Source: Spirochaetales bacterium (GTDB taxonomy: Bacteria > Spirochaetota > Spirochaetia > JABEVK01). From it: a stretch of DNA of 44,019 nt. Positions 16,741 through 42,674 of this stretch are shown here, one piece after another. Under the pieces are notes generated by a model that saw only the letters and a list, made by a program, of their open reading frames with translations, made no database searches and was not told the DNA's origin. Where the stretch lies: positions 144,246-188,264 of the forward strand of contig CANJXC010000005.1 of the NCBI GenBank assembly GCA_947478845.1. Direction: 5' to 3'. How positions within the stretch are numbered: the stretch's first letter is position 1; every line of letters begins with the position of its first letter. A program made the position numbers and the translations under genes.

Positions 16741-16758
16741 AATTGCCTCAAGGCAATT
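16741..16758 (-). other. Hairpin over the RhaQ stop codon
   Basis: AATTGCC (16741-16747) pairs with GGCAATT (16752-16758) around a 4-base loop that contains most of the RhaQ stop codon. It stands immediately before the ribosome binding site of the binding-lipoprotein gene. Confidence 0.45.
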
Positions 16759-17713: not shown

Positions 17714-17715
17714 GG

Positions 17716-21638: not shown

Positions 21639-21660
21639 CTTCCCCCTAATTTTTGCTACC

Positions 21661-21694
21661 GTGAATGGACAAAACCCGGTCAAGTGATGGACAA
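21661..21694. promoter_or_regulatory. Candidate AraC-regulator operator, two ATGGACAA direct repeats
   Basis: ATGGACAA occurs at 21665-21672 and again at 21687-21694, a 22-base period (about two helical turns), between the divergent isomerase-like and AraC genes. Direct half-sites about 21 bases apart are typical of AraC/RhaS-type regulators. Related words GTGCATGGAA and GTGCATGGAC lie upstream of the two other rhamnose operons. Confidence 0.5.
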
Positions 21695-21701
21695 TTGAGC
21701 C

Positions 21702-22592
21702 ATGTCGGACTGTGATTTCTCGTACCTCACCCATAGCCTTGAAGACGAGAACTGGCAGATGTTCTGCACCGACGCCGGCTGGAGCCGCACTCCGCCGGGT
21801 GGCGTTTATCCGCCCCGCCTAGAAGATCACCCCGCCGGCTTCCGACCTGTGTCGGTGGGTCGCCGCATCAACGAATATCAGATGGTCTATATCGTCGAAG
21901 GTCGGGGCCACCTCGAAATGGGCGAAGTCGGCTATGCGATTGAACCAGGTTCGCTTTTCCTTCTGTTTCCCGACATTCCGCATGCCTACCGGCCCGACTC
22001 GGCTACCGGCTGGACAGAGAACTGGGTAGGAATTACGGGCCCCCACATGGACGCCCTGTTGGCGGGAGGAATCATTTCGCCCTCGAGGCCCGTGTATCAC
22101 CCCGGCTATCAGCACGCAATGGTGGAAGGCTTCCAATACATCTTCCGTCAGGTGAAGCAGCAGGCGCCCTTATTTCAGTTCCGCATCTGCGCCGAGGTGC
22201 TCAAACTGCTGGCCGAAACCCTGAGCGTGGAGCGCCTTTCGGTGCAGGAGTCCAAAGCGCAAGACATCGTCGACCGTGCCAAGACCTGGATCGAGTCTCA
22301 CTTGCAGCAGGTATTCGACCTGGAAAACCTAGCCGGCGAGCTTTCCCTTTCTGTGACGGCCGTCAATGACGTTTTCAAGGGTTTTACCGGAATGACTCCC
22401 TACCAGTACGGCATCCACGTCAAAATCAACCGGGCCAAGGAAATCCTGGCAGGCGGCGAGAACTCGGTGAAGGAAATCGCCTGGCAAGTCGGGTTCGACG
22501 ACCAGTTTTACTTCTCGCGGCTGTTTAAGAAAAAGACCGGCTACAGCCCGAGCCAATGGATGCTCATGCAAACCCCCGGGCGACAGGACTAA
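21702..22592 (+). CDS. AraC-family transcriptional regulator of the rhamnose locus
   Basis: A 296-residue regulator. The N-terminal cupin-like sugar-binding domain (about 50-150, with PGSLFLLFPDIPHAY) precedes two helix-turn-helix motifs in the last 100 residues (LAGELSLSVTAVNDVFKGFTG; IAWQVGFDDQFYFSRLFKKK). This is the RhaR/RhaS-like layout, and its position among rhamnose genes suggests an L-rhamnose-responsive activator. No clear ribosome site precedes the ATG at 21702. It is transcribed divergently from the importer operon and about 80 bases before the aldolase-isomerase operon on the same strand. Confidence 0.92.
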   Translation: MSDCDFSYLTHSLEDENWQMFCTDAGWSRTPPGGVYPPRLEDHPAGFRPVSVGRRINEYQMVYIVEGRGHLEMGEVGYAIEPGSLFLLFPDIPHAYRPDSATGWTENWVGITGPHMDALLAGGIISPSRPVYHPGYQHAMVEGFQYIFRQVKQQAPLFQFRICAEVLKLLAETLSVERLSVQESKAQDIVDRAKTWIESHLQQVFDLENLAGELSLSVTAVNDVFKGFTGMTPYQYGIHVKINRAKEILAGGENSVKEIAWQVGFDDQFYFSRLFKKKTGYSPSQWMLMQTPGRQD

Positions 22593-22673: not shown

Positions 22674-23813
22674 ATGAAAAAAATAATTCCCGAAGTCGAG
22701 GCGTTGGTCGCGCTTTCTCACCACTATGGCACCCGCTGGGAGTACGTGATTGCTGGTGGTGGCAATACTTCGTGGAAAAACGATTCAACTCTTTGGGTTA
22801 AGGGCTCAGGACAAGCTTTGGGGACCATTCAAGCCGAAGGTTTCGCCCGCATGGACAGGAAGGCCCTGGCGGCCCTTTGGAGTAGGCCGATTTCCTCCGA
22901 CCCAGTACTCAGGGAAAAAGAAGTCTTGGAAGCACTGATGGCGGCCAGATTGCCGGGTGAGGAAAGCAAGCGGCCGAGCGTCGAGACGTTGCTTCATGAC
23001 CTGCTTCCCTTCGACTACGTCGTTCACACCCACCCTACGATGATCAATGCCCTCACTTGCTCCAAGGAGGGCCCCGAAGTTTTCCAGCGGCTTTTTGCCC
23101 TCGAGGCCGTATGGATTGCGTATACCGACCCGGGCTACGTCTTGGCTCACGTGGTGAAACAGGCCCTCGAGGCTTTTCGGGCGACCAACGGACACGACGC
23201 CAAAGTCATTTTCCTGGAAAATCACGGTCTGGTGGTGGCTGGCGACACTCCCGGGGAAATCCGCGACACCTACCGGCGACTGTTGGCCGACCTTGACCGC
23301 GAGGTAACTCACAAAGCCGATTTATCTCCCGTGGGGACAGACCTCCAAAAAGAAATCGCCTTTCTGCAGGCCTTGGCCCCGATAGCTCGTCGGGAATTGG
23401 GCACCGAGACCCCTCACGTAGTTAGGTCGACGGCCAGAGCGGTGGTAGCTTTAGCAGAAAGCAACGCCTCGTTCGCCCCCCTTTCGTCGGCCTTTACCCC
23501 CGACCATATTGTGTACATGGGGGTGTCGCCGGTGCGGGTCGATTCCGCCTCAGAGCTCGAGGGAGCCTTTGCCGCCTACAAGGCGCGCTTGGGAAAAGCT
23601 CCTCGTGTTGTTCTCGCCTCGGGTTTGGGGGCCTTTTGCTTGGGCGCCAACGCCAAGGCAGCCGGGCAAGCCCAGCAGTTGTTTTTGGATTCGGTGCAAA
23701 TAGGCACATCCAGCGCTGCCTTCGGCGGCCCGAGGTTCCTCACCAAAGCCGCCATCGACTTCATCATCCACTGGGAAGTCGAATCCTATCGAAGTTCCGT
23801 TAGCAGCAAGTAG
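22674..23813 (+). CDS. Class II aldolase, probable rhamnulose-1-phosphate aldolase
   Basis: A 379-residue class II aldolase/adducin-type protein. It shows AGGGNTS (28-33 region), VKGSG, zinc ligands His118 and His120 in VHTHP, and a third His184 in LENHGLVV. In the rhamnose pathway this activity splits L-rhamnulose-1-phosphate into dihydroxyacetone phosphate and L-lactaldehyde. It is longer than the E. coli RhaD type and resembles the aldolase part of the RhaE-type fusion without the dehydrogenase part. A GGGACAGACCTC word sits inside it at 23334, read as Gly-Thr-Asp-Leu. No strong ribosome site is seen. L-rhamnose isomerase follows after 27 bases. Confidence 0.83.
   Translation: MKKIIPEVEALVALSHHYGTRWEYVIAGGGNTSWKNDSTLWVKGSGQALGTIQAEGFARMDRKALAALWSRPISSDPVLREKEVLEALMAARLPGEESKRPSVETLLHDLLPFDYVVHTHPTMINALTCSKEGPEVFQRLFALEAVWIAYTDPGYVLAHVVKQALEAFRATNGHDAKVIFLENHGLVVAGDTPGEIRDTYRRLLADLDREVTHKADLSPVGTDLQKEIAFLQALAPIARRELGTETPHVVRSTARAVVALAESNASFAPLSSAFTPDHIVYMGVSPVRVDSASELEGAFAAYKARLGKAPRVVLASGLGAFCLGANAKAAGQAQQLFLDSVQIGTSSAAFGGPRFLTKAAIDFIIHWEVESYRSSVSSK
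23334..23345 (+). repeat. GGGACAGACCTC inside the aldolase gene
   Basis: Exact 12-mer 19 kb from the other copies, read as Gly-Thr-Asp-Leu, the same frame as the copy at 3003 and different from the copies at 2897, 3056 and 4069. The frame is not broken. Confidence 0.7.
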
Positions 23814-23840
23814 TATTCCAAAACCCCCAAGGAGTTCGCC

Positions 23841-25112
23841 ATGTACAAGTCCCTTTCGAAAGACCAAGTAACCGCCAACTATTCGGCAGCCAAGCAGGCC
23901 TACGCACTGCTGGGGGTCGACACCGATGCGGTGGTCAAGGCCGCCGCCGCGGTTTCCATAAGCCTCCACTGCTGGCAGGGCGACGATGTCGTGGGTTTTG
24001 AAAACCCCGACCAGGTCCTCACCGGCGGAATCCTAGCCACCGGCAACTACCCCGGTAAGGCCCGCAATGCCGAGCAGCTCCGCTCAGACCTGGCAATGGC
24101 CGCTAGCCTCATCCCGGGCGCCAAGAAGGTTGCCCTCCACGGGCTCTACGCCGAAACTGGAAGCAAAAAGGTTCCCCGAGACGAACTGGGGCCCGAACAC
24201 TTCGCAAACTGGATTTCTTGGGCCCAAAAGACAAAACTCGGACTCGACTTCAATCCCAGCTTTTTTAGCCACCCCAAGGCCGACGACGGCACGCTCTCGG
24301 CTGCCGATAAGTCCACGCGCGAGTTCTGGGTCCGCCACGGCATTCAGAGCAGACGCATCGCCGCCGCCATGGGCAAGGCGACCGGAGCCCCGGCGGTCAA
24401 CAACGTCTGGATACCCGATGGCTCCAAGGATTACCCGGCCGACCGGCTCAGTCCGCGCCTTCGCCTCAAAGATTCGCTCGACGCCGTGTTCGCAGAAAAG
24501 TTTCCTGCCGACCACCTCATCGATGCGGTAGAGTGCAAGCTCTTTGGCATCGGCAGCGAGGCCTACGTTGTGGGTAGCCACGAGTTCTACATGGGTTATG
24601 CCGTGCAGAACAAAGTGACCCTGACGCTCGACATGGGGCATTTTCACCCCACAGAAACCATTGCCGACAAAATCCCGGGCATCCTGCCATTCGTTCCTGG
24701 TTTGATGCTGCACGTTAGCCGCGGCCTGCGCTGGGACTCCGACCACGTTGTTACCTACAACGACGACGTTCAGGCCGTTTTCAACGAGATTCAGCGCGCA
24801 GGCGCTTGGAACCGTGTCGCGGTGGGGCTCGACTTTTTCGATGCCAGCATCAACCGCATCATGGCGTGGACCATCGGCGCCCGCTCGGTCCGAAAGGCCA
24901 TTTTGGGTGCCCTTCTTGAGCCTTCAGGCCTTCTTCGCGACGAAGAAAAGTCAGGGCGCCTGGGTGCCCGCCTCGCCCTCATGGAGGAACTGAAAAATCT
25001 GCCCCTGGGAGCCGTCTACGACTACTTGTGCCTCAGCCAGAACGTGCCGAATGGAACCGCCTGGATCAATGCCAGCGACACCTACGAGAAGGAAGTACTC
25101 TCGAAGCGCTAG
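23841..25112 (+). CDS. rhaA: L-rhamnose isomerase
   Basis: A 423-residue enzyme converting L-rhamnose to L-rhamnulose. The N-terminal stretch VSISLHCWQGDDVVGFE matches the E. coli RhaA signature (HCWQGDDVSGFE), and the length is close to the usual 419. Further family segments include GLDFNPSFFSHPKA and LTLDMGHFHPTETIADK, which carry metal ligands. AAGGAG precedes the ATG. It is the second gene after the aldolase. RhaA enzymes are known to act also on L-lyxose, giving L-xylulose, which is relevant to the L-xylulose kinase encoded at 36369. Confidence 0.95.
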   Translation: MYKSLSKDQVTANYSAAKQAYALLGVDTDAVVKAAAAVSISLHCWQGDDVVGFENPDQVLTGGILATGNYPGKARNAEQLRSDLAMAASLIPGAKKVALHGLYAETGSKKVPRDELGPEHFANWISWAQKTKLGLDFNPSFFSHPKADDGTLSAADKSTREFWVRHGIQSRRIAAAMGKATGAPAVNNVWIPDGSKDYPADRLSPRLRLKDSLDAVFAEKFPADHLIDAVECKLFGIGSEAYVVGSHEFYMGYAVQNKVTLTLDMGHFHPTETIADKIPGILPFVPGLMLHVSRGLRWDSDHVVTYNDDVQAVFNEIQRAGAWNRVAVGLDFFDASINRIMAWTIGARSVRKAILGALLEPSGLLRDEEKSGRLGARLALMEELKNLPLGAVYDYLCLSQNVPNGTAWINASDTYEKEVLSKR

Positions 25113-25150
25113 TCCGGAGGTTACCTAACCAGGGCGAGCCTCGGGCTTCT

Positions 25151-25465
25151 CTAGTCTAGGTGAAACACCTCCCGCAGTTCCCCCACCACCGGGGAATTGT
25201 CGGGGTTGGTCTCCATGATATCGCCCATATAAGCCCACCACTTCTTCACCACGGCGGTGTTGGCGAGGTTGGCGCTGGTATCGTGGTCTTTGATTTTTTG
25301 GAAGGCAAAGAGCACCAGAGTCTTCAGATCGAGGTAAATGGAATAGTCGCTCACTCCGGCGTCTTCGAGTTCTTTGACCAGTTCGGGCCAAATCGCGTCG
25401 TGGCGTTTCTGGTACTCGGCTTCGAAGCCGGGCCTGAGTTTCATCGTGAAGGCTGCTCGTCTCAT
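25151..25465 (-). CDS. rhaM: L-rhamnose mutarotase
   Basis: A 104-residue protein, exactly the usual RhaM length, that speeds interconversion of the alpha and beta anomers of L-rhamnose. Family features are AFTMKLRPGFEAEYQKRH with the catalytic His near residue 21, SDYSIYLD, and KKWWAYMGDIMETNPDNSPV near the end. The ATG at 25465 overlaps the rhamnulokinase stop (ATGA) and CAGGAG precedes it; the frame is open far upstream but that part is antisense-like inside the kinase gene. It is convergent with rhaA, 38 bases away. Confidence 0.95.
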   Translation of the reverse strand: MRRAAFTMKLRPGFEAEYQKRHDAIWPELVKELEDAGVSDYSIYLDLKTLVLFAFQKIKDHDTSANLANTAVVKKWWAYMGDIMETNPDNSPVVGELREVFHLD

Positions 25466-26949
25466 TTTCTTGCTCCTGCGGTTGTGGATTTTTTCTGTTG
25501 GGCTTTCAAGTCTGCGAGTCGGCGGGCGGCCTTGAGCCAGGGTTCCCGTTCCGCTTGAGGCCGGTACACCACCGGCGGGAACGAATGGGCCACCAGGCGC
25601 CGGGCCTCGGCCTGATTCGCTACCAAACCCAAGGCCCGCGCCTGCACCACCAGGTTTCCCAAGCCGCTGGCCTCGACCGGACCTGCCAACACGGGCAAAC
25701 CGGTCGCATCGGCCGTGAGCTGGCACAAAAGTGTGTTTTGGCAACCACCGCCCACCAAGTGGATTTGGCTGAGCCGGAAGCCGCGGATAGTCTGGATTTC
25801 TTCGAGCGTCTTGCAGAAGGCCAGCACGAGGCTATCGATGCAGGCCCGCGCGTAACCGCCAGGGCCTTCGGGCTGGGTTTGGCCGCTGTGGTCCCAATAG
25901 GCCTCGAGGGCCGCCTTCATCGAGGCAGGCTGGAAAAACGAGGGGTCGTCGGCATCCACCAAGGCGCGGAAGCCCGGGGCCGCCCTGGCCGCCCTGGTGA
26001 GAGGGCCGAAGTCGGGACACTCAGGCCACGAGGCCTTGAGCTGCTGGATGAGCCACAGCCCCATGCAGTTTTTCAAGAAGCGGTAGGTGCCGTCGACGCC
26101 GGCTTCGTTGGTGAAGTTGGCCGCTCGGGCGGCCTCTCCGGTTTCAGCCTGAGTCGATTCGATCCCGATAAGGCACCAAGTGCCGGTGCAAATGTAGGCC
26201 GAAGTTTGGTCGGTAAACGGAACGGCCGCCACCGCGGAGCCCGTGTCGTGGGTTGCTGGAGCTACCAGCGACAAGGTATGGGGGCCCAATTGGGTGCCCT
26301 CGGTCAGCACCGTGCCGGGCCAAACGGGTTTGGTGAACAGGGAAGGTTCCACACCGAGGGCCTTGAGCGTGCTTTGATCCCAGTCGCGGGTACGGGCATC
26401 GAGCATTTGGGTGCTGCTGGAATTGCTGAGTTCGTTCACCAGCGGCCCGCCTAAACGGTGGAGAAGCCAGTCGGGCATCATGGCGAAACGGCGGGCTCGT
26501 GCCAGAGTGGCGGGCGAGGCTTGCTTCCAAGCGGCAAACTGAAAAAGGGTGTTGAAGTGCAACGTCTGGATTCCGGTACTCTGGTAAACGGCCTTTTCAC
26601 CGAGCAGCGCAAAGGTGGAGGCCATCACCTCGCGGGTGTGCTCGTTGCGGTAGCAGCGGGGGGCTTCCAGTGGGTTCCCATCTTCGCCGACCAGCACGAA
26701 GTCAACGGCCCAGCTGTCGAGGCCCAAACTGACCACGTGAGCGTCGCTGGAAACCAGAGAGAGCCCAAGGCGAATCTCGGTTTCGATGTGGTTAGCATCC
26801 CAGCGCAATAACCCGTCTTCCATGCGAGGAGGACTGCCAAAGCGGTGAATTTCGTTGAACTCCAGTTTTCCTTCGGATAATCGGCCGGCGATGACGCGAC
26901 CACTTCCGGCCCCCAAATCGACGGCCAGCAAAGTAGATGAAGCAGGCAT
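25462..26949 (-). CDS. rhaB: Rhamnulokinase
   Basis: A 495-residue FGGY-family kinase that phosphorylates L-rhamnulose at C1. The N-terminal ATPase-fold start is LAVDLGAGSGRVI, followed by GLDSWAVDFVLV, RCYRNEHT and MPDWLLHRLGG. The C-terminal nucleotide-site motif is IHLVGGGCQNTLLCQLTAD. The ATG has GGAGGAATT directly upstream. It forms an operon with the mutarotase. A GTGCATGGAC element 41 bases upstream probably links it to the AraC regulator. Confidence 0.95.
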   Translation of the reverse strand: MPASSTLLAVDLGAGSGRVIAGRLSEGKLEFNEIHRFGSPPRMEDGLLRWDANHIETEIRLGLSLVSSDAHVVSLGLDSWAVDFVLVGEDGNPLEAPRCYRNEHTREVMASTFALLGEKAVYQSTGIQTLHFNTLFQFAAWKQASPATLARARRFAMMPDWLLHRLGGPLVNELSNSSSTQMLDARTRDWDQSTLKALGVEPSLFTKPVWPGTVLTEGTQLGPHTLSLVAPATHDTGSAVAAVPFTDQTSAYICTGTWCLIGIESTQAETGEAARAANFTNEAGVDGTYRFLKNCMGLWLIQQLKASWPECPDFGPLTRAARAAPGFRALVDADDPSFFQPASMKAALEAYWDHSGQTQPEGPGGYARACIDSLVLAFCKTLEEIQTIRGFRLSQIHLVGGGCQNTLLCQLTADATGLPVLAGPVEASGLGNLVVQARALGLVANQAEARRLVAHSFPPVVYRPQAEREPWLKAARRLADLKAQQKKSTTAGARK

Positions 26950-32597: not shown

Positions 32598-32672
32598 ATG
32601 AACGCTTGGCTTGACAGGTGGGTTCACCGAACTGATACTCATGCTCAGACCTTTGAGGAGTTATTGCCATGA
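32598..32672 (+). CDS. Short upstream reading frame coupled to the pyranase gene
   Basis: ATG at 32598 is preceded by a near-ideal ribosome site (AAGGAGG, seven bases away) and encodes 24 residues, MNAWLDRWVHRTDTHAQTFE then ELLP. Its TGA overlaps the ATG of the RbsD-family gene (ATGA). It looks like a translated leader that couples translation into the operon. It is too short for a known family and has two Trp and two His but no run of a single amino acid that would mark classical attenuation. It could be an unannotated small protein or a leader peptide. Confidence 0.5.
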   Translation: MNAWLDRWVHRTDTHAQTFEELLP

Positions 32673-33088
32673 AGTCCTCCCGGCTTATCCACAGCGGCCT
32701 GTCGCTGGTGATTTCTGAAATGGGGCACGGTGACAGTCTTGCCATCGCCGATGCAGGCCTTCCCATTCCCCCAACAACCAAACGAATCGACCTCGCGGTG
32801 ATGAAGGGTGTTCCTTCTTTCCTAGAGGTGCTCGATGCCGTGCTCAGCGAATTGCGCGTCGATCGTGTGCTGATCGCCGAAGAGTTTTCCCGTGTTAGCC
32901 CGGCCCTGTATGCCAAGTTGACCGCGAGGTTGGAACGTTACAGCAAGGCCACCGGGCAGGCAGTGAAGATTCAAGCGGTTTCCCACACTGAGTTCAAAAA
33001 AGAAACCGGTTCGGCGAGGGCCGTGGCTCGAACCGGCGAGTTCACCCCTTATGCGAACATTTTGCTCTACAGCAACGTCGTGTTCTGA
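32669..33088 (+). CDS. RbsD/FucU-family sugar pyranase or mutarotase
   Basis: A 139-residue protein of the D-ribose pyranase/L-fucose mutarotase family, which interconverts ring or anomer forms of an imported sugar. The family's His-Gly-x-Asp site (MGHGDSLAIADAGLP, His20) and the C-terminal GEFTPYANI segment are present. Its own GAGGAG precedes the ATG, which overlaps the leader frame's stop. It heads an operon with a cupin protein, an epimerase-fold protein, a UlaE-type epimerase and a LyxK-like kinase, so its sugar is probably the same as theirs rather than ribose. Confidence 0.9.
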   Translation: MKSSRLIHSGLSLVISEMGHGDSLAIADAGLPIPPTTKRIDLAVMKGVPSFLEVLDAVLSELRVDRVLIAEEFSRVSPALYAKLTARLERYSKATGQAVKIQAVSHTEFKKETGSARAVARTGEFTPYANILLYSNVVF

Positions 33089-33108
33089 AGTCTGTTAAAG
33101 GAGCGGTT

Positions 33109-34311
33109 ATGAAAAACCCGAAATTGATGTTGGAAACCTTTTCCAAAAACGCTGGTGTGCTTTGCCTGGCGCCCGTGTTTGTGCCCCGCAGGTTCAACAC
33201 CGCCGGCCGAAGACTTCGGTTGCATCCCGATGACTACTATGCCTTGGGTACCGCCCGAGGCTCCATCAAGGAACGTTGGTTTTCCTCGGTCATCGCCGCG
33301 ATGAATGGCCCTCTGGCACCGGCCGACGAGGGGATGAGCTACGTCGACCTGACGGGCAAGAAAGACGACCTCTTCCTGTTCAAGGATGCCGTTGAGGAAC
33401 TCGGCGAGAAAATCATCGGCAAGGAACTGCACAAGAAGTTTGGAACCTGGCCCATGTACTCCAAGTACTTCGATTACGATGCGCCCTTGTTTCTGCACCT
33501 CCACCTGAAGGAAGAAGATGCCCAGCGTGTGGGCCGCAAGGGCAAGCCCGAGGCCTATTACTTTCCACCGCAGCTGAACAACCACCCCGGGCAATTTCCC
33601 CACACCTACTTCGGTTTTGACCCCGATGTCTCCAAGGCGGAAGTCCGGCAAAGGCTGGAAAAGTTTGAAACCACCGACAATCGGATCACGGAACTCTCGC
33701 GCGCCTTCCGTCTCGAGTTGGGCACCGGCTGGTACACCCCTCCAGGGGTGGTGCATGCTCCGGGATCGTATTTAACCTACGAACCCCAGTGGAACTCCGA
33801 CGTGAACTCGGTTTACGAAAACGTGGTTTCCGGCGAGGTTTACCCGTACGACTTCCTCGTGGAGAACTGCCCCGAAGACCGCAAGCACGACCTCGACTAC
33901 GTGATGAGCCTGATGGACTGGGACAAGAATGTCGATCCGCACTACCGGAAAAACTGGTTCCGGCCCCCCTTGATTTCTACCGAGGACGAGAATCACGTGG
34001 AAAAATGGGTGGTCTACAACACTGGCTACATTGCTGCCAAGGAACTCACCGTGTTTCCGGGCAAGTCGGTGGTCATCAAAGACAAGGCTGCCTACGGTTG
34101 CATCCTGACCCAAGGGCACGGCAAGTTCGGCGCCTATGATGCGGAAACCGCGGTGATGCTCCGCTACGGAGGCCTGAGCGCCGACGAGTACTTTGTGAGC
34201 GAAGAGGCGGCCGGTAACGGAATCAGGGTGGTCAACCACAGCCTGAAGGAGCCGATGGTGATTCTCAAACACTTTGGACCCAACGCCGGTGACCCAGGAG
34301 CCTCAAGATGA
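33109..34311 (+). CDS. Class-I mannose-6-phosphate-isomerase-like cupin protein (paralogue A)
   Basis: A 400-residue cupin protein. It carries the type I phosphomannose-isomerase pattern: metal positions His130, His132 (LHLHLKEEDAQ), Glu148 in GKPEAYYF, and His216 in PPGVVHAPGS followed by EPQWNSDV. Classic enzymes have Gln at the first position, here His. A second cupin-like region ends the chain (VVIKDKAAYGCILTQGHG). No signal peptide. It starts after the RbsD-type gene and overlaps the next gene by four bases. With an L-xylulose-type kinase and epimerase downstream it is the best candidate for the missing aldose-ketose isomerase of this pathway. That reaction is inference; it has a paralogue at 37905. 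Confidence 0.8.
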   Translation: MKNPKLMLETFSKNAGVLCLAPVFVPRRFNTAGRRLRLHPDDYYALGTARGSIKERWFSSVIAAMNGPLAPADEGMSYVDLTGKKDDLFLFKDAVEELGEKIIGKELHKKFGTWPMYSKYFDYDAPLFLHLHLKEEDAQRVGRKGKPEAYYFPPQLNNHPGQFPHTYFGFDPDVSKAEVRQRLEKFETTDNRITELSRAFRLELGTGWYTPPGVVHAPGSYLTYEPQWNSDVNSVYENVVSGEVYPYDFLVENCPEDRKHDLDYVMSLMDWDKNVDPHYRKNWFRPPLISTEDENHVEKWVVYNTGYIAAKELTVFPGKSVVIKDKAAYGCILTQGHGKFGAYDAETAVMLRYGGLSADEYFVSEEAAGNGIRVVNHSLKEPMVILKHFGPNAGDPGASR

Positions 34312-35540
34312 ATGCCCAAATAGTCGACGCCTTAGGACGCCGGTCGGTCCTCCTCGAAAACCACCACATCCGCGCCGTGATCGAAAATCGTGGCGGGATG
34401 ATGCCCGAGTTCAGCCTGAAGCGGGGTCATGGCGGGATCAACTCGCACTGGAACCCCGAGTTTCGCGACAATTCAGGCCTCCCCTACGAGCAGAATCAGA
34501 ACGCCGCTTACTGGAAGGTCAAACTCCTATCGCAGGTGGCGGGCGATTTTCTGTGTAGCCCAAACTTCGGTGGCGGCTGCCAAGTGGATGGGGTGGACCT
34601 TCCTCCTCACGGCTGGGCTGCCAACGAGGATTGGAGTTTGGAAAGCCACGGAGTTTCCCCAGACAAATCTGTGGGGTCCGCACGGTTTTCTATGAACAGT
34701 CCACAGCCGAAAATGCCGCTGAGCTGGACCAAGTGCGATCTGGTGCTCGAGGGCCAGGCGGCCTACTTCTCGGTGATGCGCATCAAAAACTCAGGCAGCG
34801 CACCGCTGGCGATCAACCTGACCCGGCATAACACCGTGGGGGTTCCTTTTCTGCAGGCGGGTTGTCAAATCAGCCTTTGCGCCGACCGCTATCAGGTTGC
34901 GCCTTCCGGCACCGAGTTCGATTCCACGGGAAGGCTTGCCTTGGGAGCGGAGTTCTCAAACCTCCAAAAGGCTCCCTTGCGTACCGGTGCTAACGTAGAT
35001 TTGACGCAGGTTCCGGGAATCATCGGCGCCACGGACTTTGTCACCGGAGCGGTACCTTCCCACCTGAACTTGGGTTGGAGCTGCGTCGTGAACCCGATTT
35101 TGGGGCTCGCTTACGTGTGCTTTTTCCCCGGCGAGGCGGGCCTCCCCGAGGGTGAGGTAGCGCTGAGTTTCAACGACCTCTGGATGCAGTACGGTGGACG
35201 CAACTTCACCCCGTGGGCCCTCAACGAAGCAGGCGCCGACCGGACCTTCTGCCTTGGTACCGAAAATGCCATCGGCGCGTACGCCAACGGGTTGGAGTTC
35301 TCCCGCCGGAATCCAGAGATTCTCGGCCGACCGACCACCGTGACGATTCCCGCCGGGGGAGAACGCAAACTCTGTTACGGCACAGCGTTGGTGGAACTGA
35401 CGACAGAATTGGTGCAGCAGGGAATCAGGCGCGTCGAGGCCCAGGAGGGCTTTTTGGTTCTGCATGGCACCAAGTCTGCCCAGCGGATTCCCATGGATGC
35501 CACCTTCCAGCGGGTGAGAAAGTTCGAATCGGGGAGCTAA
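34308..35540 (+). CDS. Aldose-1-epimerase-fold protein
   Basis: A 410-residue protein that I place in the galactose-mutarotase-like superfamily from its pattern: VLLENHHIRAVIENRGGMM and RIKNSGSAPLAINLTRHNTVG with repeated beta strands, similar to hypothetical proteins in sugar operons. No signal peptide. It overlaps the preceding cupin gene (ATGA) and the epimerase TTG start follows after one base. A mutarotase or sugar-binding function in the same pathway is likely, but I do not see a firmly known family active site. Confidence 0.6.
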   Translation: MNAQIVDALGRRSVLLENHHIRAVIENRGGMMPEFSLKRGHGGINSHWNPEFRDNSGLPYEQNQNAAYWKVKLLSQVAGDFLCSPNFGGGCQVDGVDLPPHGWAANEDWSLESHGVSPDKSVGSARFSMNSPQPKMPLSWTKCDLVLEGQAAYFSVMRIKNSGSAPLAINLTRHNTVGVPFLQAGCQISLCADRYQVAPSGTEFDSTGRLALGAEFSNLQKAPLRTGANVDLTQVPGIIGATDFVTGAVPSHLNLGWSCVVNPILGLAYVCFFPGEAGLPEGEVALSFNDLWMQYGGRNFTPWALNEAGADRTFCLGTENAIGAYANGLEFSRRNPEILGRPTTVTIPAGGERKLCYGTALVELTTELVQQGIRRVEAQEGFLVLHGTKSAQRIPMDATFQRVRKFESGS

Positions 35541-35541
35541 A

Positions 35542-36372
35542 TTGGGCGCGACGTTGCTCGGCCTGTACGAGAAGGCCATTCCAAGCTCGCTGACTCTGGA
35601 AGACAAGCTCAAGGTGGCTTCGCGGTTCGGCTTTGACTTTTTGGAAATCAGCATCGACGAAACCGACGAAAAGCTCGGCAGGCTGAAGTGGACCACAAAG
35701 AAGAAGAAGGATCTGGCTCAGGCGATGAGTTCCACTGGGATTCCTATCAAGACCCTTTGCCTGAGCGGACACCGGAAGTACCCCCTCGGAAGTGCCGACG
35801 CTCAAACTCGCCGACGCGGCCTTGAAATCCTGGCGGATGCCGTCGACTTCGCTGCGAATCTGGGAATCCGCATCATCCAACTGGCCGGTTACGATTGCTA
35901 TTACGAGCCTTCCACCGAGGCCAGCAAAGCTCACTTCCGTGAGAATCTGGAACTCTGTGTGCATTTGGCGGCCCGCCAGGGCGTTGTCCTTGCGTTCGAG
36001 ACCATGGAAACCGAGTTCATGAACACCGTAGGTAAGGCCATGGCCTATGTTAAGGCCCTCGACTCTCCTTACCTGCAAATCTACCCCGACTTGGGCAACC
36101 TGACCAACGCGGCCCTCGCCAGCAGGACTTCGGTACTGGACGACCTTTCGGCGGGTAAGGGGCATCTGGTTGCCCTTCACTTGAAAGAAACGGTGCCCGG
36201 GAAGTTCCGCGAGATTCCCTATGGAACCGGACACGTGAACTTTGACGCCGCTATCGGCAGGGCCAAGGACCTGGGGGTTCGCCTCTTTCTGGCCGAGTTT
36301 TGGGATACCGGAAGCCCAGACTGGGAGGGGCACATCGCCTTCGCGCAGGCTTTTTTAAGGAAGAAACTATGA
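35542..36372 (+). CDS. L-ribulose/L-xylulose-5-phosphate 3-epimerase (UlaE/SgbU-like)
   Basis: A 276-residue TIM-barrel epimerase. It matches E. coli UlaE throughout: LGLYEKAIPSSLTLEDKLKV, GFDFLEISIDETDEKLGRL, TLCLSGHRKYPLGS, IRIIQLAGYD and QIYPDLGNL. Metal-ligand positions are visible in FETME, YPDLGNL, ALHLKE and LAEFWD. It interconverts L-xylulose-5-phosphate and L-ribulose-5-phosphate. The start is TTG with GGGGAG upstream, one base after the previous stop, and the stop overlaps the kinase ATG. The kinase-epimerase pair recalls the yiaP-yiaQ part of the E. coli yiaK-S operon. Confidence 0.92.
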   Translation: MGATLLGLYEKAIPSSLTLEDKLKVASRFGFDFLEISIDETDEKLGRLKWTTKKKKDLAQAMSSTGIPIKTLCLSGHRKYPLGSADAQTRRRGLEILADAVDFAANLGIRIIQLAGYDCYYEPSTEASKAHFRENLELCVHLAARQGVVLAFETMETEFMNTVGKAMAYVKALDSPYLQIYPDLGNLTNAALASRTSVLDDLSAGKGHLVALHLKETVPGKFREIPYGTGHVNFDAAIGRAKDLGVRLFLAEFWDTGSPDWEGHIAFAQAFLRKKL

Positions 36373-37880
36373 CAAAATACTTTTTGGGAGTGGATAACGG
36401 CGGCACAATGACCAAGGCCGTTCTTTTCGATGCAGAAGGAAAGGAAGTCGGCGGAGCTTCACGCAAACTCGCCTTGATCCAGCCCCAGCCCGGTTTTACC
36501 GAACGCGATATGGAGTTGCTTTGGAAGGCCAACCTCGAGGTCATCCGTGAAGCGCTGTCAACCTCAGGAGTAGAACCAGGCCAAATCGCGGGTATCGCGT
36601 GCACGGGTCATGGGAAAGGGCTCTACCTTTGGGGCAAGGATGGCCACCCCGCCTATCATGGCATAGTCTCCACCGACAGCCGGGCTTGGAAGTATCCTCA
36701 GGCTTGGGAGGCCGACGGCACGGCCGCCAAAGTGTTTCCTAGGACCCTCCAGACGCCTCTGGCCTGCCAACCTGTGGCCCTGTGGCGCTGGTTTCAAGAC
36801 AATAGGCCCGAAATCCTTAGTCAAGTTCAATGGGTGTTTTCCGTGAAGGATTATGTGCGCTTCCGATTGACCGGTGAAGCCTACGCAGAAATTACCGATT
36901 ATTCGGGAACGAGCCTCATGGACCTGAACTCCGTCAGTTTTGATCCCAAGGTCCTTGAAGCTTTCGGGGTAGCCGATATGGCGGACAAGCTTCCCCCCCT
37001 GCGTTATTCCACAGAAATTTGCGGAAAAATCACCGCTGAGGTGGCCGCGCTCACAGGCTTGAAGGCGGGCACTCCCGTCGCGGCCGGGATGTTCGATATC
37101 GACGCCTGCGCTGTGGCCATGGACGTTACCGACGAAACCAACGTCTGTGTCATTGCGGGTACCTGGGGCATCAACCAATACATTTCCCGAAAACCGGTGC
37201 TCAACCACTCGATCAAAATGAACTCGCTGTTCTGCCTTAAAGGCTACTACTTGGTGGAAGAATCGAGCCCTACCTCGGCGGGCAACAACGAATGGTTCAC
37301 CGATCTGTTCCTTGAGAGCGAGAAACAGGAGGCCCTGGCGCGCGGCCTCAGCATCCATGCCTATGCCGAAGAGCTTGCGGCTTCGGTGGAACCTGGAAGT
37401 CAGTCGCTCCTGTTTTTGCCCTTCCTCTATGGATCAAACGACAACCCACAGGCCAAAGCCTGTTTCATAGGCCTCGAGAGCAGTCACACGCGTGCCGGAA
37501 TCATCCGCTCGGTGCTTGAGGGTATTGTTTATTCGCATAGGGTGCATCTCGAGCGCCTACTGCCCAACCGCGACCGGCCCGGTTGCCTTAGATTGGCTGG
37601 CGGAGCCGCCAACAACCGAACTTGGGCGCAGATGTTCTCTGATGTGATCGGTTTACCGGTCGAGACCATCGACGCCAAGGAATTAGGCACCCTCGGCTGC
37701 GCCATGACGGCCGCTGTCGCCTCGGGATTCTACACAGACCTCAAACAAGCCGCCCAAAAGATGGTCCGCGTTAAAGAGCGTTTGGAACCTAATACCCTCC
37801 ACAAGCCGGCCTACGACAAAAAATACGCGCTTTTCGTGCAGGCGAGCCGGGCGCTCGACGGCCTTTGGAAGGAGTTCTGA
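36369..37880 (+). CDS. lyxK: FGGY-family carbohydrate kinase, L-xylulose kinase-like
   Basis: A 503-residue kinase. It starts GVDNGGTMTKAVLFDAEGKE and is similar over its length to E. coli LyxK: PQPGFTERDMELLWKAN, GHGKGLYLWGKDG, SVKDYVRFRLTG, EICGKITAEVAALTGLKAGT, SSPTSAGNNEWFTD, FLPFLYGSN and LRLAGGAANNRTWAQM. It should phosphorylate L-xylulose or a related ketose to the 5-phosphate, the substrate of the preceding epimerase. ATG 36369 overlaps that gene's stop (ATGA); a longer frame upstream is antisense-like. It ends the operon, 24 bases from the convergent cupin gene. The gene symbol is by similarity; the exact ketose is inferred. Confidence 0.88.
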   Translation: MTKYFLGVDNGGTMTKAVLFDAEGKEVGGASRKLALIQPQPGFTERDMELLWKANLEVIREALSTSGVEPGQIAGIACTGHGKGLYLWGKDGHPAYHGIVSTDSRAWKYPQAWEADGTAAKVFPRTLQTPLACQPVALWRWFQDNRPEILSQVQWVFSVKDYVRFRLTGEAYAEITDYSGTSLMDLNSVSFDPKVLEAFGVADMADKLPPLRYSTEICGKITAEVAALTGLKAGTPVAAGMFDIDACAVAMDVTDETNVCVIAGTWGINQYISRKPVLNHSIKMNSLFCLKGYYLVEESSPTSAGNNEWFTDLFLESEKQEALARGLSIHAYAEELAASVEPGSQSLLFLPFLYGSNDNPQAKACFIGLESSHTRAGIIRSVLEGIVYSHRVHLERLLPNRDRPGCLRLAGGAANNRTWAQMFSDVIGLPVETIDAKELGTLGCAMTAAVASGFYTDLKQAAQKMVRVKERLEPNTLHKPAYDKKYALFVQASRALDGLWKEF

Positions 37881-37904
37881 TGCCTCTTGGGCTTTGAGCT
37901 CTAT

Positions 37905-39095
37905 TTACGGCCGGGGACCAAAGTGCTTGAGCATGACCAGAGGGTCAGAAGTGCTGAGGTTCTCTATAGTCACTCCATGGTGAGCTGCATCGCTGGTCAC
38001 GAAAAACTCGTCCTTGGTACGCTGGCCAAAACGAATCAGGGCTGGTGACTCGGCTTCAAGATTACCGATGCGGCCATGCCCCTGAATCACAATGGCGCCG
38101 TAGGGACCCTCGTCTTTTACGACGACCTTGCGTCCGGGCAACACCGTTAGTTCCTTTGCCGAAAAGTACGTGGACTTATACACAACTTCGTACTCTTCAA
38201 AGCCCTCGGCGTGCATTTCGGCAACCGGACGCACGGGGCGTGGGTTCATGAAATGGTGTTCATAGAACCCCGGATCAAGGTTGGCCTCCCAATCGAGGAG
38301 GTCGATGTAAAAGTCGAGGTCGTTTTTGTGTGCCTCGGGGATATCCTTGCTCAGAAGCTCACGCGGGGTATAAACGTCCCAAACGACATTCTGAAACATC
38401 GAGAACACGTCGGAAGCCCTTTGGGGCTCGTAAGTCAAGAGAGATCCCGGCGCATGGAGAATTCCCGGGGGCACATCCCAACCGGTTCCAGGTTGCAACT
38501 TCATGGCTTTGGAGAGGTAGAGGATGCCGTTGTCTTTCTGGTCCCAAACGGCGAGGCATTCCTTGATTTGGTCCTTGGTGGTTCCCGGATGCAGGCCGAA
38601 GAAGGTATAGGGGAAATAGCCACCGTGGTTGTTCAGTTGTTTCGGAAAATAATACGCTTCGGGTTTACCAACGCGTCCCACCTTGGCTGCCATGGCATCG
38701 GTATGGTGAACGTGATGGGGAAGTGGTTCCTCGTTGTCGAAGAACTTCGAGTACATCATCCATCCGCCGAAGCGCTTCATGACCTCGCCGCCAAGAATCT
38801 CCTTTCCACCCACTTCCAGAGCGTCCTTCAGCGACAAATGCGAGTCTCCGGTCTGAATAAACGAAAGCCCTTCAAAGGGAGTCGTAAGCGGGCCGTTGTC
38901 GGCCTTGGTGGTCGAGGCCAGCCAGCGCTCGTCAATACCCCCTCGGTGGGGACCGTAGGAATAATAGTCTTGCGGGTGAAGTTTGAGCCTTTTGCCGGGA
39001 ATACAGAACGACCGGGGTACCCAGTTTGGTTCCAGACGCAAGACTCCGTTCCCCTGATTCAAAGCAATTTCCAGAGCCTGTTTCTCGCCAGCCAT
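37905..39095 (-). CDS. Class-I mannose-6-phosphate-isomerase-like cupin protein (paralogue B)
   Basis: A 396-residue paralogue of the protein at 33109, collinear over the whole length. It keeps the metal-site pattern (His128 and His130 in PHHVHH, Glu146 in GKPEAYYF, His214 in PPGILHAPGS), the EPQRASDV segment and the C-terminal GPYGAIVIQGHGRIGNLEAE. It has a strong AGGGAGGA ribosome site before the ATG. It is on the opposite strand to paralogue A, convergent with the kinase gene and divergent from the importer at 39247, so it may be expressed differently. Two diverged copies in one locus suggest different sugars or a hetero-oligomer; neither is shown. Confidence 0.8.
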   Translation of the reverse strand: MAGEKQALEIALNQGNGVLRLEPNWVPRSFCIPGKRLKLHPQDYYSYGPHRGGIDERWLASTTKADNGPLTTPFEGLSFIQTGDSHLSLKDALEVGGKEILGGEVMKRFGGWMMYSKFFDNEEPLPHHVHHTDAMAAKVGRVGKPEAYYFPKQLNNHGGYFPYTFFGLHPGTTKDQIKECLAVWDQKDNGILYLSKAMKLQPGTGWDVPPGILHAPGSLLTYEPQRASDVFSMFQNVVWDVYTPRELLSKDIPEAHKNDLDFYIDLLDWEANLDPGFYEHHFMNPRPVRPVAEMHAEGFEEYEVVYKSTYFSAKELTVLPGRKVVVKDEGPYGAIVIQGHGRIGNLEAESPALIRFGQRTKDEFFVTSDAAHHGVTIENLSTSDPLVMLKHFGPRP

Positions 39096-39186: not shown

Positions 39187-39215
39187 TTGACAAGCTCTGA
39201 GATTAAGTTGATCAT
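39187..39215 (+). promoter_or_regulatory. Candidate promoter of the third importer operon
   Basis: TTGACA (39187-39192), a 17-base spacer and GATCAT (39210-39215), 31 bases before the ATG at 39247. The -35 is perfect and the -10 matches four of six. It lies in the 151-base divergent gap with cupin paralogue B. Confidence 0.55.
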
Positions 39216-39246: not shown

Positions 39247-40137
39247 ATGAAAAGAGTTCTCGTTGCACTGGTACTGTTGACTGCTTTGGTTCCTGGCATG
39301 CTGTTTGCCAAGGACATTGTGATTGGGATGACCGTCCCTGGCTTGCAGTTTCCCTTCTTCGTCACGATGAAGGCCGAAGCCGAGGCCGCCGCCAAGAATT
39401 TGGGTGTCAAGCTTTTATTCATCGATGCGCAGAATGCTTCCGACAAGCAGGTTGCGGCCATCGAAAACTTTGTTGCCCAGAAGGTCGATGGTATTTTGAT
39501 TTCCCCCATGACCGTCGATTCCCAGGTGCCGGCTATTGAAGAAGCTGTGGCCGCTGGTATCCCCGTGGCGAGCGTGGACCGCAAGGCGAATTCCGACAAG
39601 GTGCTCGCACACGTCGGAGCCGACAACGTGGCCGGTGGCCGTTCCGCTGCCCAGTACATTATTGACAAGTTGAAGAACAAAGGCACCGTCATCGAGCTCG
39701 AGGGAACTCCTGGTTCTTCCGCCGCTGTTGACCGCAAGGCCGGCTTCGACGAGGTGATGAAGAAGTCGAACATCAAGATTCTCGTTTCGCAGACTGCTGA
39801 GTTTGACCGCGCCAAGGCCCAGTCGGTTATGGAAAACTTGATTCAGGTTTATCCCAAGTTTGACGCCGTCTTCGGTGCCAACGACGAGATGATCATTGGT
39901 GCTATCGAAGCGATGAAGGCTGCCAAGCTGGATGTCAAAAAGATCGTAACTATCGGCTTTGACGCCACCGACGATGCCAAGGCATACATGAAGGCCGGCA
40001 CGCTCGGAGCCACGATCGACCAGTACCCTGGCAAGCAGGCCGCGATGGCCCTGAAGGCCTTGGTCGACATGATCAAGAGCAAGAAGAAGCCCGCCAAGGC
40101 CGTTGATTACATCACTCCGATGCCTGTCACTAAGTAA
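39247..40137 (+). CDS. Periplasmic sugar-binding protein of the third CUT2 importer
   Basis: A 296-residue exported binding protein of the ribose-binding class. The signal peptide ends at about residue 21 (MLFA-KD). The mature part has IVIGMTVPGLQFPFFVTMKAEAE, an AGIPV turn, SVDRKANSDK and IGFDATDDAKAYM, all typical of RbsB-like proteins. Start 39247 is chosen because TGGAGG precedes it; the frame runs further upstream without one. It should deliver the sugar that the cupin/LyxK/UlaE genes degrade; which sugar is unknown. Confidence 0.92.
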   Translation: MKRVLVALVLLTALVPGMLFAKDIVIGMTVPGLQFPFFVTMKAEAEAAAKNLGVKLLFIDAQNASDKQVAAIENFVAQKVDGILISPMTVDSQVPAIEEAVAAGIPVASVDRKANSDKVLAHVGADNVAGGRSAAQYIIDKLKNKGTVIELEGTPGSSAAVDRKAGFDEVMKKSNIKILVSQTAEFDRAKAQSVMENLIQVYPKFDAVFGANDEMIIGAIEAMKAAKLDVKKIVTIGFDATDDAKAYMKAGTLGATIDQYPGKQAAMALKALVDMIKSKKKPAKAVDYITPMPVTK

Positions 40138-40154
40138 TTCGAAGCAGTTTTAGC

Positions 40155-40190
40155 TACAGGCCGGCACTGGAAGCCGGCCTGTACTTTTTA
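40155..40190 (+). terminator. Hairpin with short U-run after the binding-protein gene
   Basis: TACAGGCCGGC (40155-40165) pairs with GCCGGCCTGTA (40173-40183) around a 7-base loop, followed by CTTTTTA. A strong stem with a modest U-run, so probably a partial terminator or 3' stabiliser that raises the binding-protein message over the ATPase and permease downstream. Confidence 0.65.
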
Positions 40191-40210
40191 TCAAGCAATG
40201 GGGTGAGCAC

Positions 40211-41746
40211 ATGGCCTTCGCGTTGGAAATGCGTGGAATTACGAAATCCTTCCCCGGGGTCCGCGCTCTCAAGGGTGTAGATTTCGAGCTCGAAGCCGGC
40301 GAAGTCCACGCCTTGGTGGGAGAAAACGGGGCCGGCAAGTCTACCCTGATGAAGATTCTTTCGGGCCTGTATACAGCGGACGAGGGTGAGATCCGGCTCC
40401 ACGGGAAGCCCATTACCACGACCGGAATCCGCTCCATGCTCGACGCGGGCGTGAGCGTCATTTACCAAGAACTGAATCTTGTACGTCATTTGTCGGTGGC
40501 CGAGAATATCTTTTTGGGCCGTGAGCCGCTGCTTGCCGGTTCCCTCATCGACTGGTCTAAGATGGACAAGGACGTGAAGAAACTGCTGGAACCTTTCGGC
40601 ATCGATTTAAATCCGCGAGCCAAGATCTACACGTTGGGCCCCGCCTACCAGCAGGTCGTAGAAATCGTGAAGGCTCTGTCTCTGAACTCCGAAATCATTG
40701 TCATGGATGAACCCACGGCCGCCCTGACCGGCAACGAAGTCGAACGTCTTTTCGATATTATCCGAAGCTTAAAGGCGAGCGGAGTGTCGGTCATCTACAT
40801 TTCGCACCGTCTGGAAGAACTCGCCAAGGTTGCCGACCGGGTCACCATAATCCGAGATGGCCAGAAAATCATCACCAAAGCGATTGCGGAACTTAAAACG
40901 GACGAAATCATCCGCCATATGGTAGGACGCAGCCTAGACGAGCAGTACCCCAAGATGACGATACCGGTGGGTCGTGAAGTTCTCAGGGTTGAAAACCTCA
41001 CGAAACAGGGAGTCTGTCAGGATGTTTCGTTCCACGTGAACCAAGGTGAGATCGTCGGGTTTACAGGATTGGTTGGCGCCGGACGAACCGAAATCATGCA
41101 ACTGCTGTTCGGTCACACCCAAGCCGACTCGGGGCAGGTTTTCATCGATGGCGTAAAGACTCACATCCGTAGTCCCCGTGACGCCGTCAAAATGGGCATA
41201 GGGCTGATTCCAGAGGAGCGAAAGCAGCAAGGCCTGGTACTGGGGCTTTCTGTGCTCGACAATGCGTCTCTCACCGTGCTCGATCTATTCTCTCGCTTCG
41301 GCGTTCTGCTCGGGCGCTCGCTTCAGGCCAAAGTGAAGTCCATGGTCGACAAGATGGACATCAAAACACCAAGTCTTAAACAGCAGGTGCTGCACCTTTC
41401 CGGCGGAAACCAGCAGAAGGTTGTGCTTGCCAAATGGTTTCTGCGCGACTGCCGTTTGTACATCTTCGACGAACCGACCCGGGGTATTGACGTCGGCGCC
41501 AAAGTAGAAATTTACAAGCTCATGCAAAATCTAGCCAAGGAAGGCGCCGCAGTGATCATGGTTTCGTCCGAACTTCTTGAGGTCATGAACATGAGCGACC
41601 GGATTGAAGTGGTGTTTAGTGGCGCCATTGTGGCGGAGTTCAAGCGCGATGAAGCCGACAGCGAGCGGGTTATGGAGTACGCCCTGGGACTTCACTCGCA
41701 AACGAGCATCAAATTACAAGTAGAGGGGCATCAGGATGGAGCTTAG
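40211..41746 (+). CDS. CUT2 sugar ABC importer, duplicated ATPase (RbsA-like)
   Basis: A 511-residue ATPase with two ABC domains. The first has Walker [10 protein letters not shown] near residue 38 and Walker [12 protein letters not shown]; the second has [17 protein letters not shown] and [21 protein letters not shown] before the ATG serves as ribosome site. It lies between the binding protein and the permease; its end overlaps the permease start by 11 bases. Confidence 0.93.
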   Translation: MAFALEMRGITKSFPGVRALKGVDFELEAGEVHALVGENGAGKSTLMKILSGLYTADEGEIRLHGKPITTTGIRSMLDAGVSVIYQELNLVRHLSVAENIFLGREPLLAGSLIDWSKMDKDVKKLLEPFGIDLNPRAKIYTLGPAYQQVVEIVKALSLNSEIIVMDEPTAALTGNEVERLFDIIRSLKASGVSVIYISHRLEELAKVADRVTIIRDGQKIITKAIAELKTDEIIRHMVGRSLDEQYPKMTIPVGREVLRVENLTKQGVCQDVSFHVNQGEIVGFTGLVGAGRTEIMQLLFGHTQADSGQVFIDGVKTHIRSPRDAVKMGIGLIPEERKQQGLVLGLSVLDNASLTVLDLFSRFGVLLGRSLQAKVKSMVDKMDIKTPSLKQQVLHLSGGNQQKVVLAKWFLRDCRLYIFDEPTRGIDVGAKVEIYKLMQNLAKEGAAVIMVSSELLEVMNMSDRIEVVFSGAIVAEFKRDEADSERVMEYALGLHSQTSIKLQVEGHQDGA

Positions 41747-42674
41747 TCTCAAGGGTATACTGAAAAACTACGGAATTCTGATCGCCTTCTTCGCGATCTG
41801 CGCCATTATCTCGATTCTCTCGCCCGTGTTTTTGGCGCCCAACAACATCATCAACGTCATTCGCCAAACTTCCATCTACGGCATCATCGCGGTGGGAATG
41901 ACCTTCGTCATCCTGACCGGTGGAATCGATTTGTCGGTAGGTTCAATTCTCGCCGTTTCCGGCGCGGTTTGTGCCGGTTTGATCCACGCGCAACTGCCGG
42001 TGGCGGCCGTCATCGCTGCCGCCTTGGGAGTGGGCATAGCTTTCGGTGTTTTCAACGGTTTGTTCATAACTTTGGGCAAGATCACACCGTTTGTCGTAAC
42101 GCTGGGCATGATGGGTATTGCCCGCGGAATCACCCTCATTTACACCAACGGGTATCCTATTTCGGGGCTTCCTGAAGATTTCCGCTTCGTGGGAAGTGGC
42201 TATCTGTTTGGTCTGCCCATCCCCGTCCTCATTTTTATCGCGGTGGTGCTGGTTGCCCATTTCGTGCTGACACAAACCCGGATGGGCCGCTACACATATG
42301 CCATTGGTGGCAATGAGGCGGCGGTCAGGCTGTCGGGGATCAACGCCAATTTCTATAAAGCGCTGGCGTACGTCATCGCGGGGGCAACAGCGGGCCTGAG
42401 TTCGGTGATTCTCACTGCTCGTCTCAATTCGGCCGAGCCAGTGGCCGGTAACGGCTACGAGCTCGATGTCATCGCGGCGGTAGTCATCGGAGGTACCAGC
42501 CTCAGCGGAGGTCGTGGCAGCATTTGGGGCACCTTCATTGGAGCCTTGATGATTGGCGTCATCAACAACGGCATGAACTTACTGGGAATTTCTTCCTACT
42601 TTCAGCTCGTGGTCAAAGGTCTCATCATCATCGGGGCTGTGTGGCTCGACCGACTGCGCGATGAGTCGAATTAG
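41736..42674 (+). CDS. CUT2 sugar ABC importer permease (RbsC-like)
   Basis: A 312-residue permease with about 8-10 hydrophobic segments, VILTGGIDLSVGSILAVSG near residue 60 and GYELDVIAAVVIGGTSLSGG toward the C-terminus. It completes the third importer. The stop is 10 bases from the end of the convergent glutathione peroxidase gene. Confidence 0.92.
   Translation: MELSLKGILKNYGILIAFFAICAIISILSPVFLAPNNIINVIRQTSIYGIIAVGMTFVILTGGIDLSVGSILAVSGAVCAGLIHAQLPVAAVIAAALGVGIAFGVFNGLFITLGKITPFVVTLGMMGIARGITLIYTNGYPISGLPEDFRFVGSGYLFGLPIPVLIFIAVVLVAHFVLTQTRMGRYTYAIGGNEAAVRLSGINANFYKALAYVIAGATAGLSSVILTARLNSAEPVAGNGYELDVIAAVVIGGTSLSGGRGSIWGTFIGALMIGVINNGMNLLGISSYFQLVVKGLIIIGAVWLDRLRDESN

Follow-up and report, generated by a model that had tools for sequence, protein, structure and literature searches.

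A phosphomannose-isomerase-fold cupin family encoded beside LyxK-type kinases, with a candidate free-aldose isomerase in a spirochaete sugar operon

The DNA analyzed here, a 44,019-nucleotide stretch of contig CANJXC010000005.1 from a Spirochaetales bacterium (hereafter the window), contains a five-gene sugar operon whose second gene encodes CUP1, a cupin protein with the fold of type I phosphomannose isomerase (PMI). A related cupin, CUP2, is encoded next to the operon. On balance, we favor the reading that CUP1 is a metal-dependent free-aldose ketol-isomerase forming L-xylulose, the predicted substrate of the LyxK-like kinase in the same operon. This reading rests on the fold, the conservation of the site, the recurrent neighborhoods with LyxK, UlaE, and AraD in at least four phyla, and an apparent substitution for the isomerases RhaA and AraA. 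A preliminary description of the window had proposed that the cupins are novel aldose-ketose isomerases feeding a LyxK-type kinase, and these four lines of evidence, drawn from sequences and structure models, support the proposal in part. What is new here is the protein family; the pathway is a variant of one already known, and the system is not of a new kind.

The two cupins are 47% identical to each other, and the genome encodes no further copies. In a Pfam search at E 1, neither protein matched any family, including those of D-lyxose isomerase and RhaA/AraA. CUP1 found no match in NCBIfam or, by single-sequence search, in the PDB, and CUP2 reached only 13 bits with the PMI model TIGR00218 (cut-off, 116). 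Likewise, 85 family members searched against Pfam at E 0.1 gave no PMI match and no other credible match. The relationship to PMI emerged at the level of profile and structure. A profile of the cupin family picked up the phosphomannose isomerase 1zx5 in the PDB (E 4e-6), and the AlphaFold model of CUP1, built with 84 sequences, had a predicted local distance difference test score (pLDDT) of 96 and a predicted template modeling score (pTM) of 0.93. The 17 best Foldseek matches of this model in the PDB were all type I PMIs (E 2e-17 to 6e-12), with template modeling (TM) scores of 0.57-0.61 by query and 0.54-0.78 by target; the next folds were oxalate decarboxylases (E 2e-9). No convincing relative of the cupins appeared in a viral structure library or in phage records. 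Relatives were confirmed at no fewer than 567 places in species genomes, and the family is therefore not a product of chance.

The preliminary description had recognized a type I PMI metal pattern in a cupin of the operon, and the alignment of relatives bears this out; in CUP1 the pattern consists of H130-x-H132, K146-P-E148, and H216. K119, H130, H132, K146, E148, H216, and E225 are invariant across 84 relatives, D231 is conserved in 82 of them, and CUP2 has the same invariant metal residues. An hhalign comparison of the family with the single E. coli ManA sequence was ungapped and covered residues 82-135 only, pairing K119, H130, and H132 with K86, Q97, and H99 of ManA. The equivalences beyond this segment rest on shared motifs and on the 1zx5 alignment: the motifs K-P-E and H-A-x7-E-x3-N-S-D place K146, E148, H216, E225, and D231 at K132, E134, H255, E264, and D270 of ManA. 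Compared with the full PMI site (Q-x-H, E, H, K86, K132, E264, and R274), CUP1 differs only at Q97, where the first metal ligand is His instead of Gln, and at R274, a position occupied by V, M, or I in 80 of the 84 relatives. The loss of R274 suggests, at the sequence level, a switch from a phosphosugar to a free sugar. According to PDB titles, K86, H99, K132, E134, H255, E264, and R274 of PMI have been targeted in mutant structures; no description of the roles of these residues was found in the open-access literature. In the cupin D-lyxose isomerase, the catalytic residues are H75, H77, K86, E88, H143, E156, and D163, and mutations equivalent to K86, E156, and D163 abolish the activity (PMC8378251). 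CUP1 has the same catalytic set (H-x-H, K-x-E, H, E, and D), as matched by motif order and not by superposition.

The shared fold and metal site, together with the absence of the PMI C-terminal domain PF01238 from the genome, could also indicate that the cupins are divergent phosphomannose isomerases acting on phosphosugars. We regard this as very improbable, given that the Pfam PMI models match none of the 85 members, that a hydrophobic residue replaces R274, and that the cupin genes sit by sugar importers and in operons with a ketose kinase. In addition, the family is carried by just 22 of 393 spirochaete genomes, unlike a housekeeping PMI.

The genes accompanying CUP1 point to pentulose metabolism. 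Among the E. coli FGGY kinases, the operon kinase is closest to LyxK (37%, 340 bits), followed by LsrK (174 bits) and XylB (140 bits), and in a quick tree with E. coli references only it falls in a 25-row group with LyxK (100% support in the Shimodaira-Hasegawa-like approximate likelihood ratio test). It is thus predicted to be an L-xylulose kinase, and phosphorylation at O5 would be consistent with the neighboring 5-phosphate epimerase. The UlaE-like epimerase exceeds the curated cut-offs of PRK13210 (334 versus 200 bits) and of the L-ribulose-5-phosphate 3-epimerase model TIGR00542 (286 versus 272 bits); its sole PDB match is UlaE (3cqh, E 8e-69), and it is 43% identical to E. coli SgbU. AraD is encoded outside the operon, beside AraA on another contig (C15), and is 55% identical to E. 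coli AraD; in relatives, AraD (50-68% identical to the E. coli enzyme) often lies within the same cluster. The mutarotase-fold protein of the operon matched no Pfam family, and its model (pLDDT 88) resembles best the aldose-1-epimerases and galactose mutarotases (E 1e-14). RbsD and an RbsB-like binding protein might hint at a D-ribose or D-allose pathway. This reading was dropped in view of the LyxK-like kinase, the pentulose-5-phosphate type of the epimerase, and the occurrence of AraD in sister operons.

In the pathway that we propose, the CUT2 importer would take up a rare free L-sugar, and the RbsD-type pyranase and the mutarotase-fold protein would accelerate ring or anomer changes of the imported sugar. 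CUP1, with a His-His-Glu-His site for a presumed metal ion, would convert the free aldose to L-xylulose, presumably via a metal-bound cis-enediol. The predicted downstream route is well supported by homology: the LyxK-like kinase would convert L-xylulose to L-xylulose 5-phosphate, the UlaE-like enzyme would convert the latter to L-ribulose 5-phosphate, and AraD, from elsewhere in the genome, would produce D-xylulose 5-phosphate. CUP2 probably isomerizes a second aldose from this pool, such as L-ribose, which would yield L-ribulose.

The preliminary description had suggested examining whether the cupin family recurs next to LyxK and UlaE homologs, and it does so, with AraD as well. A LyxK-clade kinase was found at 24 sampled cupin loci, in half of which (12/24) it lies directly beside the cupin gene (<150 bp, same strand). 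The CUP1-LyxK loci span Spirochaetota, Pseudomonadota, Bacteroidota, and Bacillota, and often include UlaE and AraD. In the cupin tree, LyxK-bearing loci are concentrated in a 24-row group that holds the window CUP1. Across 393 spirochaete genomes, the cupin and LyxK co-occur in 8 genomes against 1.2 expected (p 3e-6), and the cupin and the mutarotase-fold protein in 7 against 0.6 expected, both counts being uncorrected for relatedness.

The isomerase content of these loci raises the possibility of substitution. RhaA was found in 1 of the 24 cupin-LyxK loci (L078), and AraA, XylA, and FucI in none, whereas RhaA is present in 6 of the 18 LyxK loci that have no cupin beside them. A comparable situation exists for AraA. 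A CUP2-type cupin adjoins AraB-AraD in the spirochaete genome G009, and in two further spirochaete genomes, G045 and G060, it shares a cluster with them. AraA_N was found in none of the three genomes; in G009, a single contig with 90% completeness, neither AraA domain was found, while G060 has a completeness of only 60%, and in G045 a single weak AraA-superfamily protein is encoded elsewhere. These cases represent one or a few events, because the three genomes belong to one family. The cupins of these clusters may have taken over from L-arabinose isomerase without being homologous to it, or they may be L-ribose isomerases. We therefore put forward, with slightly less than balanced confidence, a wider proposal: an undescribed and widespread family of PMI-fold free-aldose isomerases may have repeatedly replaced unrelated isomerases, the CUP1-type replacing RhaA for entry at L-xylulose and the CUP2-type replacing AraA for entry at L-ribulose, and the LyxK-UlaE-AraD route, formerly considered restricted to Gammaproteobacteria, would then occur in a number of phyla with a dedicated entry enzyme. 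The AraB-AraD cupin clusters lie at L036:9061-12730, L044:9834-14900, and L043:3795-11064, and that of L044 has an intervening GH4 alpha-galactosidase-like protein.

Several observations weigh against an isomerase role of CUP1 or against the substitution. The window itself encodes RhaA (23841-25109, E 8e-178) 8 kb upstream of the LyxK operon, and RhaA is encoded in all other spirochaete genomes with both LyxK and the cupin. L-Lyxose isomerization would therefore be possible without CUP1, and, for this genome, the preliminary description went too far in calling the isomerase step missing. Only about three independent lineages account for the six RhaA-LyxK loci, and L-lyxose is considered scarce in nature. 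Many CUP1 relatives have no LyxK nearby, their neighbors being genes for glycosidases, aldolases, and dihydroxyacetone (DHA) kinase; at loci L049 and L052, an AraA-like isomerase adjoins the cupin together with a GlpK-like kinase, and a second isomerase would be superfluous there. Finally, Lachnospiraceae operons carry a Gfo/Idh oxidoreductase, a possible source of L-xylulose from a polyol. Even so, most of the contexts lacking LyxK are ones of sugar breakdown, where an aldose-ketose isomerase would be plausible.

These points bear on an alternative in which L-xylulose is supplied by RhaA acting on L-lyxose or by a polyol dehydrogenase, and CUP1 carries out C2 epimerization or anomer/ring interconversion. 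The distribution of RhaA just described agrees with such a role, as do the Gfo/Idh or zinc alcohol dehydrogenases accompanying some LyxK operons; moreover, two other ring-form enzymes are encoded in the operon, so that non-isomerase handling of the sugar is present there. We nevertheless consider this alternative unlikely. RhaA and the cupin seldom share a LyxK locus, the window operon contains no dehydrogenase gene, and the conserved site of the cupins is that of an isomerase, including the catalytic lysines.

RhaA in the window belongs to an L-rhamnose-type set on the opposite strand (22674-26949), which consists of a class II aldolase-domain protein, RhaA, and an FGGY kinase. In six spirochaete loci (L193, L194, L195, L184, L185, and L189), a LyxK-type kinase occurs with RhaA and, in some, with RhaB/RhaD; these are candidates for natural loci serving L-lyxose plus L-rhamnose.

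For CUP1 acting as an isomerase, L-lyxose is the substrate that we tentatively put forward, by analogy and with some doubt. A PMI is known to turn L-lyxose into L-xylulose and L-ribose into L-ribulose (PMC4718643). L-Lyxose is preferred to L-xylose because the sugars on which PMI and the cupin D-lyxose isomerases are documented to act carry the C2 and C3 hydroxyls in the same orientation, an arrangement found in L-lyxose and L-ribose but not in L-xylose and L-arabinose. The preliminary description had named L-lyxose, L-xylose, or a related sugar; this rule favors the first and disfavors the second. Applied to the AraB-AraD cupins, the rule would make L-ribose their substrate. It remains conceivable, although improbable, that CUP1 isomerizes L-xylose or another sugar to L-xylulose or a related ketose. 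L-Xylose and L-lyxose alike yield L-xylulose, and the AraB-AraD cupins would need to make L-ribulose, possibly from L-arabinose with its opposed C2/C3 hydroxyls, in which case the PMI substrate rule may fail within the family. The documented substrates of PMI and D-lyxose isomerase speak against this, as does the fact that RhaA, for which the cupin apparently substitutes, is part of the E. coli L-lyxose system. Our literature search found no description of a dedicated enzyme forming L-xylulose from a rare free sugar such as L-lyxose.

The genes of the operon and its surroundings are listed in the table. The preliminary description had placed the pyranase, a cupin, an epimerase-fold protein, the UlaE-like epimerase, and the LyxK-like kinase in one operon. 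Indeed, five genes from RbsD to the kinase (32669-37880) follow one another on the plus strand, any gap or overlap between them spanning no more than about 20 bases. CUP2 is encoded on the opposite, minus strand, where it converges with the kinase gene and diverges from the importer, and it thus lies outside the operon. The CUT2 importer described beside the operon was confirmed as three plus-strand genes beyond CUP2 (39247-42674).

Genes of the CUP1 operon, CUP2, and the adjacent importer (window coordinates)
Feature	Coordinates	Strand	Evidence and remarks
RbsD-type sugar pyranase, 139 amino acids	32669..33088	+	PF05025, 142 bits; D-ribose pyranase model, 171 bits (cut-off 93); good ribosome site
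CUP1, PMI-fold cupin, 400 amino acids, proposed free-aldose ketol-isomerase	33109..34311	+	family profile and model
Mutarotase-fold protein, 410 amino acids	34308..35540	+	start overlaps CUP1 stop by 4 bases; structure model
UlaE/SgbU-like L-xylulose-5-phosphate 3-epimerase, 276 amino acids	35542..36372	+	TTG start with ribosome site; PRK13210, 334 bits
LyxK-like FGGY kinase, 503 amino acids, predicted L-xylulose kinase	36369..37880	+	ATGA overlap with epimerase; LyxK, 37%
CUP2, second PMI-fold cupin, 396 amino acids	37905..39095	-	47% to CUP1, E 4e-128
CUT2 importer, sugar-binding protein (RbsB-like)	39247..40137	+	PF13407, 221 bits; RbsB model, 223 bits (below cut-off 337)
CUT2 importer, double ATPase	40211..41746	+	PF00005 twice; xylose/ribose/arabinose importer ATPase models
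CUT2 importer, permease	41736..42674	+	PF02653; ribose permease model, 338 bits (below cut-off 398)

The window has three CUT2 importers in total, and another of these (15706-20227) adjoins an AraA/FucI-superfamily isomerase (20208-21734) with a weak Arabinose_Iso_C match. Promoter-like sequences are located immediately 5' of the operon (TTGACA-N17-GATACT, 32611-32639) and immediately 5' of the importer (TTGACA-N17-GATCAT, 39187-39215); the number of such sites in the region is not above that in shuffled sequences.

The glycosidase-type neighbors of the cupins in other genomes are varied: GHL6/GH42M-like, GH38, GH4, pectin-lyase-like, and GH2 proteins, and several Pfam-less proteins of 650-1200 amino acids. 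GHL6, fucosidase-like, or GH42M-domain proteins are encoded directly beside CUP2-side cupins at L041:10118-12154 and its relatives (12 loci, several phyla). Large Pfam-less proteins (about 740-1200 amino acids) are encoded beside CUP1 genes at L066:11379-14804, L067:6512-9979, L073:11170-15738, L068:3925-7197, and L084:6337-9945, and two of them found no match among PDB sequences; they are possibly undescribed glycosidases releasing the CUP1 sugar. In the Chloroflexi locus L069:7628-19216, a CUP1 homolog (68%) is accompanied by a GH38 alpha-mannosidase, lactate oxidation genes, and a 113-amino-acid protein that looks like RhaM by eye and has no NCBIfam match. One cupin branch (L116-L124) has DHA kinase and class II aldolase neighbors. 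A distant cupin on the Arthrobacter conjugative plasmid NZ_CP084551 (L003:9538-16158) occurs with DHA kinase, RpiB, a triose-phosphate isomerase family protein, two alcohol dehydrogenases, and a CUT2 importer, a set resembling tetritol/erythrulose pathways.

The substrate of the E. coli LyxK operon has been described as an as yet unidentified carbohydrate yielding L-xylulose (PMC6958661), and a survey in 2011 placed LyxK in a few Gammaproteobacteria only (PMC3245297). The LyxK-clade kinases found here occur by an unnamed cupin family in spirochaetes, gut Lachnospiraceae, Bacteroidota, and others. Establishing the function of CUP1 could put a name to a family that has more than 560 representatives in species genomes, and to a rare-sugar route in common gut bacteria; isomerases of this kind are also sought for the production of rare L-sugars.

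Among known enzymes, the type I PMIs (ManA; PDB 1qwr, 1zx5, and 3h1m) resemble CUP1 in overall fold (Foldseek E 2e-17 to 1e-13) and in the metal, lysine, and glutamate residues, and PMIs show weak activity on L-lyxose and L-ribose (PMC4718643). In contrast, the identity is only 9-17%, no Pfam or NCBIfam PMI model matches above its cut-off, the first ligand is His in place of Gln, Arg274 is replaced, and the context is one of free-sugar uptake and a ketose kinase. Cupin D-lyxose isomerase (EC 5.3.1.15) and L-ribose isomerase are metal-dependent cupins that isomerize free aldoses, as proposed for CUP1. They differ in showing no sequence-family match, in making D-xylulose or L-ribulose instead of L-xylulose, and in being much smaller single-cupin proteins (PMC8378251).

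The pathway as a whole is closest to the E. coli L-lyxose route, which consists of the rhamnose system, LyxK, SgbU/UlaE, and SgbE/AraD; homologs of LyxK, SgbU, and AraD are present here, with the same order of steps. The E. coli route also employs rhamnose isomerase, and rhaT of E. coli is annotated as a rhamnose/lyxose symporter. The place of LyxK in the route is stated in the title of Sanchez 1994, a reference in PMC6958661. Whereas E. coli borrows the rhamnose system for L-lyxose, the spirochaete has a PMI-fold cupin in the kinase operon, by its own CUT2 importer. The E. coli operon yiaKLMNO-lyxK-sgbHUE likewise shares LyxK and SgbU homologs with the window but differs in having a 2,3-diketo-L-gulonate symporter, the YiaK reductase, and the SgbH decarboxylase, and no cupin of the CUP1 family.

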